A stretch of 28,096 bases of DNA, taken from positions 1 through 28,096 of the IMG/VR virus record IMGVR_UViG_3300019776_000345. One strand, written 5' to 3'. This DNA comes from a virus. Both the position numbers and the translations under genes were made by a program. Below are positions 7,311-21,088 of this stretch, in pieces (position 1 is the first letter of the stretch; every line of letters begins with the position of its first letter). The notes beneath the pieces were generated by a model. That model was not told the DNA's origin. It was given only the letters and a program-made list of their open reading frames with translations, and did no database searches.

Positions 7311-7313
7311 GGA

Positions 7314-10933: not shown

Positions 10934-10951
10934 GTAAAGAAATTTCTTTAC
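10934..10951. repeat. Perfect 18-bp palindrome
   Basis: GTAAAGAAATTTCTTTAC reads the same on both strands with no spacer. It lies in the AT-rich part of the genome-end region, upstream of the early genes, where a dimeric regulator could control early transcription or where a cleavage or replication protein could act. Confidence 0.75.
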
Positions 10952-16146: not shown

Positions 16147-16533
16147 ATGAAACAGGGCGACACCATGTTCGACATTGCTAACTTCTTGAGCGGCGCTGAG
16201 GCCTTCTATGCCATCAGTGACCAAATGCCTGTGAGCTACATCCTCACCCTCTTGTGGGTGGCACAGAACCCTGATGGCAACCAGCTCGATCTTGAGAAGT
16301 ACCTAGGCAGCTCCAACGCCACCGCGTCTAGGGCTGTCAAATACTGGTCCAAGTGGAAGTCACCACGGCAGGGTGGCACCCACGGGGCTGACTACATCGA
16401 CATCTATCAAGACCCTGCAGACCGTAGGTACAATCGGCTGAGGCTCACGCCTACTGGCAAGATGTTCATCGCCAACTTGAAGGAGAAGTTCAAATGGCAA
16501 GGCAACACAGGGACGGCTGGCAAGCAGACGTGA
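16147..16533 (+). CDS. MarR-like winged-helix transcriptional regulator
   Basis: The 128-residue protein has the MarR fold pattern: N-terminal helices, VSYILTLLWVAQ (29-40), a helix-turn-helix with recognition helix about SSNATASRAVKYWSKW (55-70), and a wing with DPADRRYNRLRLTPTGKMF (89-107), close to the MarR consensus DxRDRRxxxLxLTxxG. Such dimers bind palindromic operators. Its 3' end overlaps the integrase gene by 40 bases, so the two are co-expressed, and this is the best candidate for a lysogeny repressor or an integration/excision control protein. AGAGG is 8 bases before ATG 16147; ATG 16165 is an alternative. No other repressor-like gene (CI type) is present in this window. Confidence 0.75.
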   Translation: MKQGDTMFDIANFLSGAEAFYAISDQMPVSYILTLLWVAQNPDGNQLDLEKYLGSSNATASRAVKYWSKWKSPRQGGTHGADYIDIYQDPADRRYNRLRLTPTGKMFIANLKEKFKWQGNTGTAGKQT

Positions 16534-17465
16534 TCCACGAGGGGAAGCGGCTGCGAAAGCAGTTCGCTACCCAGCTAGCTGCAGAACAGTGGGAAGACTC
16601 GTATCGCATCGGTTCCCCTGACAAGACCAAGCCCACCTTGCTGGACTACGTGAAGCCCAGGATCGACATGATCTGGGAACGAGGGTCTAAGCATGGCGAC
16701 AAGCAGTTTCGTCATCTGCGATACATGCACAAGTTCATCGACTGCCCAATGGAGGACATTACACAGCTCAAGGTCAATGAGCTCATCTCTGGTCTACAGA
16801 AGCAGGGCGACACTGGCGGCACCATCAACAGGAAGCTGGCCGCGCTATCCAAGGCCCTCAAGTATGCCAAGCACGAGGGTGCCTACTCTAGGGAGCTGCC
16901 TAGGTTCACACGTCAGCGTGAGCCCAAGGGCCGCATCCGTTACCTTGAGTGGGACGAGGAGAAGCGCCTGTCTACCGAGCTGGCCAAGTTCAACCCGCGC
17001 TACCCTGACTTCGTCGCCTTCATGTGTGACACAGGGGTGCGCTGTAGCAACGGGGTGGACCTCCTGTGGAAGGACGTGAAGCTACCTGTCGGCAATGGTC
17101 GAGGACAGATCACCTTGTGGGAAACCAAGCAGGGTGAGCCCCAGACCGTACCCCTGACCGCCCGTGCGGTCGAGGCCCTACAGCGGCAAGACAAGAAGGC
17201 CACAGGCCCTTGGAAGTGGCTCAACCCTTGGACCCTACGCAAGCACATCAAGGAGGCGGCGATAGCGGCTGGCCTTGGGGATGAGATCGTGATCCACACC
17301 TTCAGGCACACCTGTGCATCCAGGCTTGTGATGAAGGGGGTAGACATCAGGAGGGTCCAGAAATTCATGGGCCACAAGACAATCACTATGACACTGAGGT
17401 ACGCCCACCTCGCTCCCAAGGAACTGGAGAGCTGCGTGGATGCCCTCGATATGATGGGAGTGTGA
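16494..17465 (+). CDS. int: Tyrosine integrase (site-specific recombinase)
   Basis: The 323-residue protein has an N-terminal arm-binding-like part (DGWQADVIHEGKRLRKQFAT), a core-binding SAM-like region (about 50-140) and the catalytic domain with Arg183, Lys212, His268-x2-Arg271, His294 and nucleophile Tyr303 in TITMTLRYAHL. All catalytic residues are present, so the enzyme should be active. It would insert the phage genome into the host chromosome at an att site. The gene lies upstream of the RNA polymerase gene, the place of int in T7-like cyanophages such as P-SSP7, and about 400 bases before a tRNA-Cys-like sequence. It starts within the MarR-like gene. TCACTATGAC at 17387-17396 inside it encodes the ITMT of the conserved motif and is probably chance. 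Confidence 0.95.
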   Translation: MARQHRDGWQADVIHEGKRLRKQFATQLAAEQWEDSYRIGSPDKTKPTLLDYVKPRIDMIWERGSKHGDKQFRHLRYMHKFIDCPMEDITQLKVNELISGLQKQGDTGGTINRKLAALSKALKYAKHEGAYSRELPRFTRQREPKGRIRYLEWDEEKRLSTELAKFNPRYPDFVAFMCDTGVRCSNGVDLLWKDVKLPVGNGRGQITLWETKQGEPQTVPLTARAVEALQRQDKKATGPWKWLNPWTLRKHIKEAAIAAGLGDEIVIHTFRHTCASRLVMKGVDIRRVQKFMGHKTITMTLRYAHLAPKELESCVDALDMMGV

Positions 17466-17780: not shown

Positions 17781-17839
17781 GTGACATTTCACCTTGTCAC
17801 ACCCGTGACACACGGCTATACCAGTCACGCCCCAGTCAC
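17781..17839. repeat. Cluster of GTCAC/GTGAC repeats beside the putative attP
   Basis: GTGAC or GTCAC occurs at 17781, 17796, 17805, 17824 and 17835. TGTCAC-ACCC-GTGACA (17795-17810) is a perfect inverted repeat. CCAGTCAC is directly repeated at 17821 and 17832, exactly 11 bases, about one helical turn, apart. Between integrase and attP core, such helically phased repeats suit arm-type integrase or excisionase binding sites. Confidence 0.55.
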
Positions 17840-17861: not shown

Positions 17862-17914
17862 GGCCTCGTGGTAGAGTGGCTATACAGAGGACTGCAAATC
17901 GGTTCTCGAGCTCC
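17862..17914 (+). other. tRNA-Cys(GCA)-like remnant, putative attP core
   Basis: The sequence starts like a tRNA: acceptor-like GGCCTCG, a D-arm GTA...TAC with GAGTGGCTA, and an anticodon loop CTGCAAA (GCA, Cys) preceded by GAGGA. After CAAATC it loses tRNA form: the 3' anticodon stem does not pair well, variable loop and most of the T-arm are missing, and it ends in GAGCTCC, reminiscent of an acceptor end with a small deletion. It cannot be a working tRNA. Phages with tyrosine integrases commonly carry part of a tRNA gene as attP, with crossover at the anticodon loop. Its place downstream of int fits. The matching host tRNA-Cys would confirm it. Confidence 0.45.
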
Positions 17915-17949: not shown

Positions 17950-17976
17950 AAAGGCCCATACTGCTTGGGCCTTTTT
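17950..17976 (+). terminator. Strong factor-independent terminator
   Basis: AAAGGCCCA, seven-base loop, TGGGCCTTT forms a perfect 9-bp GC-rich stem with A-run before and T-run after (TTTTT then GTTTT). It stops early/integrase transcription before the RNA polymerase gene. In the circular or prophage form with attP at 17862-17914, it would lie between the attachment site and the RNA polymerase gene. Confidence 0.92.
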
Positions 17977-18081: not shown

Positions 18082-18204
18082 GGTTCTAGAAATACCCGCC
18101 ACTAACGCTAATACGCACCAATCCTGCCCTACGTGACAGCTCCCCAGCCGTCATGAGGGGGTAAGGGGGTGTGTAATACAAGGTAACTCTATATGTATAA
18201 CTGG

Positions 18205-18278
18205 AGTATAACTCTAGTTAAACTGGTATTAATAGGTGATAGTAGGCACCCTTAACATCAGTTAACTAGAGTTATACT
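18205..18278. repeat. 17-bp inverted repeat immediately upstream of the RNA polymerase gene
   Basis: AGTATAACTCTAGTTAA (18205-18221) and its exact complement TTAACTAGAGTTATACT (18262-18278) are separated by 40 bases; CTG/CAG extends the match after a one-base gap. Further partial copies, GTAACTCTA at 18183 and GTATAACTGG at 18195, lie just upstream. The right arm ends two bases before ATG 18281 and contains a -10-like TATACT. As DNA it looks like a set of operator sites allowing looping; as RNA it could form a long stem covering the start. Confidence 0.85.
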
Positions 18279-18280
18279 TT

Positions 18281-21088
18281 ATGTCTTCCTCTTGTCTTCC
18301 TGTGTCACACAGCGACGACTTGGGAGAATACTATCCTTCGACTCAATCGCTATACACTGGCTCACAAAAGGATACGCCATTGAAGATTGACATGACTGAG
18401 CGTCAGGTCGCCCTAGAAGCGGCGAACCTGGAGCAGTTTCGAATGGTAAGGGATAGGCGTCTGAGGTCTGATATCAAGTCGGGTCGCTACGCTGAAACGA
18501 TGGAAGGTAGGTCGATCTCCAGCCTCCTTCTGTCTCCCTTGTCCCAGGCCCTAGAGGACTACCGTGCTAAGACCGTAGAAGGTCGTGTCGGGGTCAAGAG
18601 GGATGAGGTCGCTGCACACCTGATTGGTGAGCTGACCCCTGAGGTCACCGCCCTGATCTTCCTGTCTACCCTGTTGAACCTTCTCTCCATGGTCGAGCGG
18701 GGGCAGCCCAAGCCTGTGATGCTGTCGGCGTTCTGCCGCCACTTCGCTGGCAACTGCCTCGATGAGCTGGCCGTGCGCGAGGCCTTCGCTATCCGCCCCA
18801 AGATGGTCAAGGCCATGATGGCTGACGCCAAGTCCAAGGCGTCTCCGCGCCTGTGGACCAAGAGGGCCATGGGAAACTACGTGAACTTCAAGCAGCCCGC
18901 CTTCGTCACACGCTTCAAGCACGTCGAGGGGTTCTGGGGTAACATTGGCGCTGCCGTGCTTGAGGTCGCCTCTGCCCTGCACCTCGTGCAGATCGTGACG
19001 ATCTACAAGGACAAGCGGTCCTACTACCACGTATACCCGACCAACGGCCTCGTTCTCCTGATGGAGGAAGCGGCCCGCAAGGGTAGGCTCGTGTCTACCG
19101 ACTATGACCCCATGGTCTGCCCTCCCCGCCCTTGGGGATTGGATGCCAAGGGTGCTGCTGGTCGTGAGTACGGCGCTGACTTCTTCGTCGGCGGCTACCT
19201 CACTGGTCACATCAGGCCGTACCCGTTCGTCAAGGCGAAGGGGCAGTCTCGTAAGATGGTGAAGGACGTTCGTCGCAAGTCTGCCGACATGAGGACACTG
19301 CTTACACAAGTGAATGCCCTGCAGAACACCGCGTGGCATGTCAACCCTGTGATCCTCAGCGTGATGGAAGAACTCTGGTTCAACCGTCGAGGCAACATTG
19401 CAGGACTACCGAATGCCGTGACCTTGGAAGAGAAGCTAGCGGGTGGCCATGTGCTGCCTGATGACAAGCTGTCTCGGTTCAAAGAGATCGATGAGGACCG
19501 GAGGAACCTATCCCTCAGGCTCTACATCAATCGCATGATCGCCAAGGCCAAAGCGTTTGGTCACTATGACGAAATCTACATGCCCTATTCCGTTGATAGC
19601 CGTGGGAGGGTTTATGCGATCCCTGTAGCACTCAACCCTCAGGGACCGGACTATCAGAAAGCCCTCCTTGAGTTCGCTCAAGGGAAGCCTATCAGCTCCA
19701 GGGATCGTAGCTGGTACTGGCTGGCTGTCGGTATCGCTAACACCTACGGCAAGGACAAGCTCTCGCTTGATGACCGTGTCGAATGGGTGAAGGCGAACCA
19801 AGACCTGATCCTCAGCGTGGCTACTAATCCACTCACCGACCTTCGCTGGACCACTGTGTCTGAGCCGTGGCAGTTCCTCCGGGGATGTCTCGACTGGAAG
19901 GGCTGGAAGGATCAGGGTGACGGCTTCCTGTCTCATTGGGCAGTTGCTGTCGATGCCACATGCTCTGGACTACAAGTCTACTCCATGCTGTTCAAGGATG
20001 AGGTAGGTGGGCGATCTGTCAACCTAGTTCCTGGTCTTGAACGACAGGACATCTATGGCGATGTGGCCAATCGAGTGAAGGACCGTCTTCGCGAGATACT
20101 GGTGACCTCTACACTTGTGCAGAGGAAGCAAGAAGCTCGTGAGGTATGGAATGACGCTATCGCTGTGTTCAAAGCCCAAGGGTTCGACATGCAGCTCCTT
20201 CGTCCCACCGTGTTCAACATGGCGACCAAGGATTTGCTGGAGAGCTACAAGGGTGAGGATGCACTGATCGAAGCGCTGACCCAAGCGAAGAAGGCTTACA
20301 ACAAGGTTCGCCGCATCTTAGGTAGGGCCAACATTGCTAGGCACCTTCTAACATGGGACTTTGACCGTAGCGCCACGAAGCGCCAGGTGATGACGCTGCC
20401 ATACGCGGCAACACAGAGGTCGTGCTTTCTTTACACTCGCGATTACCTAAGCGAACGCATCAAGTCTGGAGAGGCCCTGCCACACGGCTGGTTCAAGAAG
20501 GACTTCGATAATCACGCCATGTTGCTCAGTGATAACATCTGGGCTGCCATTGGTGAGGTCGTGGTAAAAGCGAAGGAAGGGATGACTTGGTTCCAAGCGT
20601 CCATCCGTGAGTATGTGAAGAAGAACCCTGACAAGCCGTTCGGCTGGTACGCACCTGACGGACTGTTCTGCTTCCAAGCGAAGTGGGACATGGACACTCG
20701 CCGTGTAGAGACGTTTCTCAATGGCGAGATGATCAAGCCTTCGTTCGAAGTCGAGACTGATGAGGTTGATCCTAGGGGCATGGCGCAAGCCGTGGCTCCA
20801 AACATCATCCACTCAATCGACGCTGCGATACTCAGGGCTGCCACTGGTAAGGCAATCACACGACAAGAACCACTGAGGCACTTCGCGTTCATTCACGATA
20901 GCTTTGGTGTTCACGCTGCAGACATGGAGGTCTTCTTGAACGAGTGCTTGAAGCCCGCGTTCGTAGAGATATTCAAGTCTGACATTCTCTCCTCCTTGAA
21001 AGACTCGTTTGGCACTGAGCTGCCGCCTCCCTCTCAGGGCAACCTGGATTTGGATGGCGTCCTCTCTAGCCAGTTCTGCTTCTCCTAA
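18281..21088 (+). CDS. Single-subunit DNA-dependent RNA polymerase (T7 gp1-like)
   Basis: The 935-residue protein aligns along T7 RNA polymerase (883 residues). Catalytic Asp558 is in DATCSGLQ, Lys700 and Tyr708 in RSATKRQVMTLPYA, and Asp873 in FIHDSFG; the C-terminus is GNLDLDGVLSSQFCFS against T7 GNLNLRDILESDFAFA. It transcribes middle and late phage genes from its own promoters. The start is uncertain: ATG 18281 gives an N-terminus of T7-like length but lacks a ribosome site; TTG 18380 has AAAAGGA 7 bases upstream; ATG 18392 begins MTERQVAL. If the TATACT at 18273 is a -10 box, the shorter starts are right. The gene follows a terminator and an inverted repeat, so it seems to have its own controlled promoter. 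An exact 13-bp motif lies at 19302 inside it. Confidence 0.97.
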   Translation: MSSSCLPVSHSDDLGEYYPSTQSLYTGSQKDTPLKIDMTERQVALEAANLEQFRMVRDRRLRSDIKSGRYAETMEGRSISSLLLSPLSQALEDYRAKTVEGRVGVKRDEVAAHLIGELTPEVTALIFLSTLLNLLSMVERGQPKPVMLSAFCRHFAGNCLDELAVREAFAIRPKMVKAMMADAKSKASPRLWTKRAMGNYVNFKQPAFVTRFKHVEGFWGNIGAAVLEVASALHLVQIVTIYKDKRSYYHVYPTNGLVLLMEEAARKGRLVSTDYDPMVCPPRPWGLDAKGAAGREYGADFFVGGYLTGHIRPYPFVKAKGQSRKMVKDVRRKSADMRTLLTQVNALQNTAWHVNPVILSVMEELWFNRRGNIAGLPNAVTLEEKLAGGHVLPDDKLSRFKEIDEDRRNLSLRLYINRMIAKAKAFGHYDEIYMPYSVDSRGRVYAIPVALNPQGPDYQKALLEFAQGKPISSRDRSWYWLAVGIANTYGKDKLSLDDRVEWVKANQDLILSVATNPLTDLRWTTVSEPWQFLRGCLDWKGWKDQGDGFLSHWAVAVDATCSGLQVYSMLFKDEVGGRSVNLVPGLERQDIYGDVANRVKDRLREILVTSTLVQRKQEAREVWNDAIAVFKAQGFDMQLLRPTVFNMATKDLLESYKGEDALIEALTQAKKAYNKVRRILGRANIARHLLTWDFDRSATKRQVMTLPYAATQRSCFLYTRDYLSERIKSGEALPHGWFKKDFDNHAMLLSDNIWAAIGEVVVKAKEGMTWFQASIREYVKKNPDKPFGWYAPDGLFCFQAKWDMDTRRVETFLNGEMIKPSFEVETDEVDPRGMAQAVAPNIIHSIDAAILRAATGKAITRQEPLRHFAFIHDSFGVHAADMEVFLNECLKPAFVEIFKSDILSSLKDSFGTELPPPSQGNLDLDGVLSSQFCFS
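19302..19314 (+). promoter_or_regulatory. Reference copy of the 13-bp motif inside the RNA polymerase gene
   Basis: TTACACAAGTGAA, used as the reference because the half-sites TTACAC and GTGAA are most nearly symmetrical with a two-base centre. It codes for LHKxx-free residues (the reading frame gives L-T-Q-V-N), so position inside the gene does not depend on a protein motif I recognise. An intragenic site in the polymerase gene is what a roadblock (stoperator) would look like. Confidence 0.45.

Follow-up and report, generated by a model that had tools for sequence, protein, structure and literature searches.

The DNA analysed here, referred to as the window, is the IMG/VR virus contig IMGVR_UViG_3300019776_000345, 28,096 bases in length. 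The contig carries a T7-like gene set, which includes a terminase, a helicase-primase, a family A DNA polymerase, a T7-type SSB and a lysis gene. It also contains a lysogeny cassette, in which a MarR-like regulator (16147–16533, + strand; phrog_9665, E=1.4e-18) is followed by a tyrosine integrase (16494–17465, + strand; PF00589, E=4e-26) and then by a T7-like RNA polymerase (18380–21088, + strand; phrog_414, E=1e-181). Compared with the rest of its clade, the RNA polymerase has an insertion of ~54 residues (alignment columns 646–699). An intrinsic-terminator-like hairpin is found at 17950–17974, between the integrase region and the repeats described below, and polymerase transcription could be isolated by it from the MarR-integrase operon. 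Elsewhere in the contig, a perfect 18-bp palindrome, GTAAAGAAATTTCTTTAC, is present at 10934–10951 in the stretch after the terminase.

Upstream of the polymerase lies a perfect 17-bp inverted repeat, with the left arm AGTATAACTCTAGTTAA at 18205–18221 (+ strand) and the right arm TTAACTAGAGTTATACT at 18262–18278 (− strand). The arms are complementary at 17 of 17 positions across a spacer of 40 nt, as the original prediction had stated, and they form the only perfect inverted repeat of at least 14 bp with a spacer of up to 200 in the 28,096 bases. The number of 17-bp repeats expected by chance is ~2e-4 in the window and 4e-6 in the intergenic region, or 9e-5 in an AT-rich worst case, so the accompanying claim that chance occurrence is negligible holds. 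The hexamer TATACT (18273–18278) within the right arm and the two partial copies, GTAACTCTA at 18183 and GTATAACTGG at 18195, were likewise confirmed. Taken as a whole, 18205–18278 is 81% self-complementary. The palindrome TAACTNNAGTTA occurs once in each arm, and these are its only two copies in the window; the corresponding operator-like sites, to which no strand applies, are TAACTCTAGTTA (18209–18220), one of the two TAACTNNAGTTA copies, and TAACTAGAGTTA (18263–18274). A near-palindrome that is present in two copies necessarily resembles an inverted repeat, and the 17-bp repeat is therefore explained by one pair of units that occurs twice in opposite orientation. Promoter inversion by the integrase was set aside, because the arms are only 40 bp apart.

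The arms and their satellite copies together make up an array of ~11-bp units with the consensus GTWTAACTNNA, arranged around a 28-bp core. The left cluster (18183–18227, + strand) consists of four units, GTAACTCTATAT (18183), GTATAACTGGA (18195), GTATAACTCTA (18206) and GTTAAACTGGT (18217), with start-to-start distances of 12, 11 and 11; its self-match at a lag of 11 is significant against dinucleotide shuffles (p=0.007). The right cluster (18256–18277, − strand) contains two inverted units, GTATAACTCTA (18277–18267) and GTTAACTGATG (18266–18256). Exact matches to the consensus number four in 28 kb, all of them within 18195–18277, and the densest cluster of phased GT(2-3)AC pairs in the window is this array. 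The units are one helical turn apart and therefore lie on one face of the DNA.

Promoter-like hexamers are embedded in the array. By consensus match, TTAACA (18252) and TATACT (18273), with 15 nt between them, form a candidate sigma70-type host promoter that would serve the polymerase (18252–18278, + strand). A weight-matrix scan ranks it as the top sigma70-like site of the intergenic region, and its score is not exceeded in any 755-bp window along the contig. A mirror promoter-like site, TTAATA-16-TATACT, is present on the − strand at 18205–18232 with a score nearly as good. The right palindrome spans the spacer of the candidate promoter and part of its −10. Repeated binding-site-like sequences flank a promoter-like site, itself a consensus match, upstream of the polymerase. 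The 15-nt spacer is short and poor. In addition, the GTTAACA and GTATACT units are inherently similar to −35 and −10 hexamers, and the promoter match may simply follow from that; because of this resemblance, the polymerase promoter is treated here as a candidate. A phage promoter in the core, TATTAATAGGTGATAGTAGG, was considered and rejected, the sequence has one weak match in the window (18074) and is otherwise not repeated.

The right arm had been described as touching the ATG of the polymerase. It does end 2 nt before ATG 18281, but this codon is probably not the start of the gene, which likely begins at TTG 18380. The phrog_414 profile starts at residue 37 of the open reading frame from ATG 18281, and TTG 18380 is the common start in the alignment with relatives. 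The GC content by codon position of 18281–18379 is 0.45/0.52/0.45, compared with 0.59/0.41/0.69 for the gene, and AAAGGA precedes TTG 18380. These four observations place the repeat most likely ~100 nt upstream of the gene, off the start codon.

Around 280 loci were collected through terminase and polymerase queries. The polymerase tree groups the window into a clade with 20 members (support 0.997), where its polymerase sits on a long branch with ~33–38% identity to its relatives. Phased 10–12-bp arrays of other sequence are found directly before the polymerase in six relatives, the loci L059, L060, L151, L217, L218 and L226. Tandem Repeats Finder reports a period of 11 with 3.8 copies of TGTATACACTA in L059, where more units lie to the right of an AT-rich core, and a period of 10 with 7.6 copies of the GTTAACCTAG type in L060, a locus with both MarR and integrase. 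Units like ATGTTAACAT and GTGTATACAC occur on either side of the core in L217, L226 and L218, and in L151 there are about three units in a run immediately 5' of the polymerase.

Phased GT(2-3)AC pairs, a pattern defined after some of the tested sequences had been inspected, are significant at p≤0.01 in 6 of 15 members of the clade, compared with 2 of the 201 T7-like polymerase loci outside it (Fisher 1e-6); a technical filter kept L226 out of this count, and tested separately it is significant too (p=0.003). A motif-free lag test identifies 6 of 15 clade members against 18 of 201 others (Fisher 0.003). At the strict threshold no array was detected in L221, L062, L219, L066, L228 and further clade members. 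A simple inverted-repeat test on the loci with MarR and integrase was positive at p≤0.05 in 5 of 36, which is no enrichment, so a long inverted repeat before the polymerase is not general to such phages. The phased-unit architecture is found in one subclade. Outside the clade, two palindromes or long arms are present at the same place in L042, L113 and L153. In L042 (1–5646) arms of ~25 bp, with one 1-nt indel, surround a promoter-like core ~120–240 nt before the polymerase ATG, and a terminator-like hairpin follows the arms just 5' of the polymerase ribosome-binding site, a possible attenuator.

We consider that the array is probably a DNA operator of many units that controls the phage RNA polymerase gene, and that the inverted repeat is its visible core. 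The multi-site operator had been one of the two readings offered originally, and it gains support from the phased units that flank promoter-like hexamers and from the several polymerase relatives that share this architecture with other sequence. DNA looping had been proposed along with it. Since the core between the two clusters measures no more than 28 bp, the protein could equally well bridge them or form one continuous nucleoprotein complex.

The MarR-like protein encoded upstream is a plausible binder of the array. Its AlphaFold model (pLDDT 86) has Foldseek matches to MarR family members and its sequence profile matches MarR chains in the PDB, so a MarR-type fold is predicted with confidence. 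MarR is found together with an array in L060 and with an array or weak array in L213. The closest MarR relatives, in L066, L228, L232 and L235, have ~40–44% identity and a near-identical recognition helix, and no array was found before the polymerase in these four loci. The array may therefore belong to another regulator. It is possible, although we think it doubtful, that a different phage or host protein, such as another small regulator, binds the array and that MarR acts at TTACAC-type sites. CTTACAC palindrome-like sites are present near the polymerase both in the window and in the close MarR relatives, and phased 10–12-bp arrays are typical of ribbon-helix-helix and TubR-like proteins; against this, no second DNA-binding protein was recognised among the neighbours of the array.

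The TTACACAAGTGAA element is distinct from the array, and the involvement of two regulators, as suggested earlier, is possible. This element looks like a phage promoter or a second operator before several genes. A dispersed element, CCTTACACAAGYGAAAGG, occurs on the + strand at 7312, 7729, 11776, 12586, 13760, 14559 and 21090, as well as at 17912 (+) and 17991 (−). Its copies sit just before genes, in three cases 26 nt from the start, and it is a candidate phage-polymerase promoter or second operator. Many relatives also have a CTTAC-type element after the stop codon of their polymerase gene.

The second reading offered originally was an mRNA stem that blocks translation of the polymerase. As RNA, 18202–18282 does fold strongly (z about −6), and the arrays of the relatives mostly fold better than shuffles. 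On this reading a stem-loop in the polymerase leader would block translation or be cut by an RNase. Palindromic operators, however, fold as a by-product, and the topology of the fold varies among relatives: the left array folds on itself in L217 and L226, left-right pairing is found only in some loci, and L151 has no excess RNA stability. The stem ends ~100 nt short of the likely start codon and its ribosome-binding site, and it would be mostly untranscribed if the array promoter were used. A conserved stem covering the ribosome-binding site, the mark of an mRNA attenuator or translational operator, was not found. Conservation in relatives had been proposed as a check, and its outcome is divided, the long stem is not kept but the phased-unit architecture is kept in several relatives with other letters. 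Because relatives do not keep the long stem, and because it does not reach over the likely start at TTG 18380, translational block by an mRNA stem is disfavoured and we regard it as improbable; conservation of the phased units without the stem favours the DNA operator.

Integrase arm sites are typically tandem repeats of ~10 bp to the left and right of a core, and the attP site is expected between integrase and polymerase. The array could on these grounds be taken for the arm-type sites of attP, which appears quite unlikely. It abuts the polymerase start and lies ~280 bp from a tRNA-like remnant, so that tandem repeats around an attP core overlapping a tRNA are not seen here, and the 28-bp core is too short for arm bending. 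A better candidate for arm-type sites is the cluster at 17781–17839, immediately 3' of the integrase and of the small open reading frame that comes after it. Five GTGAC/GTCAC are packed into 60 bp there, more densely than anywhere else in the window. Similar clusters occur after the integrase in L029, L064, L066, L119 and others. The cluster lies beside a remnant resembling the 5' half of tRNA-Cys (17868–17902), which is the probable attP neighbourhood. As to integration, the contig has the integrase gene and this remnant, and a prophage form of the phage was not seen. No intact tRNA was found in the window by ARAGORN; L064 has an intact tRNA-Cys between integrase and polymerase.

That the array consists of replication origin iterons or a partition-type centromere, with the promoter match incidental, is very improbable: it has phased direct units beside an AT-rich stretch and resembles plasmid R1 parC/ParR, where 11-bp units likewise form two clusters with a short promoter core between them, but its clusters are inverted, replication of T7-like phages is initiated at polymerase promoters, neither a partition gene nor a replication-initiator gene was recognised beside it, no ribbon-helix-helix protein was identified, and the proteins of the lysogeny and polymerase region had no actin-like ATPase or ribbon-helix-helix match in searches that were not specific for ParR or ParM.

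As a DNA operator, the array most likely serves to switch off the phage polymerase during lysogeny. A repressor made by the phage, with the MarR-like protein two genes upstream as the likeliest candidate, would bind the units side by side and cover the −10 and −35 of an early host promoter with a start near 18285, the polymerase would thereby be kept off in the lysogen. If repression failed or had not yet been set up, the host polymerase would transcribe a ~95-nt leader and, behind it, the phage polymerase gene with its start at TTG 18380, and synthesis of the phage polymerase would commit the phage to lysis. The differing letters of the units in each phage may give each its own repressor specificity, that is, immunity.

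A published hypothesis, as set out in PMC10134795 (citing Boeckman et al. 2022, Virology 568:86-100), places MarR sites on either side of a promoter upstream of the polymerase in temperate T7-like phages. The LUZ100-type switch (PMC10134795) has the same order of MarR-like gene, tyrosine integrase and polymerase, and its proposed repressor sites flank a promoter before the polymerase. LUZ100 has the phage promoter phi1 before the polymerase, whereas here a host-type promoter-like site lies within about six phased units, and in LUZ100 no significant inverted repeat was found within 300 nt before the polymerase. The best reading is that the present switch is a variant of the MarR switch previously hypothesised for temperate T7-like phages.

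Lambda-type operators consist of several palindromic repressor sites over an early promoter. By analogy, the array resembles such clusters in the cooperative multi-site repression of a lytic-decision promoter; the lambda operators are separate 17-bp sites, the units here are 11 bp and phased, and the repressor types are unrelated.

T7 serves as the standard example of strictly lytic phages. Relatives of T7 with integrases exist, and how their polymerase is kept off has so far been only hypothesised. The array provides a concrete operator candidate of ~95 bp and six units, and the relatives supply natural variants for binding, cooperativity and immunity specificity. A potential use is in repressible switches for phage polymerases. 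We tentatively suggest, as an idea with somewhat less than even chances, that a temperate T7-like lineage keeps its polymerase silent by means of a repressor array in helical phase, in which ~11-bp units would double as promoter hexamers and fast drift of the unit sequence would set immunity groups.
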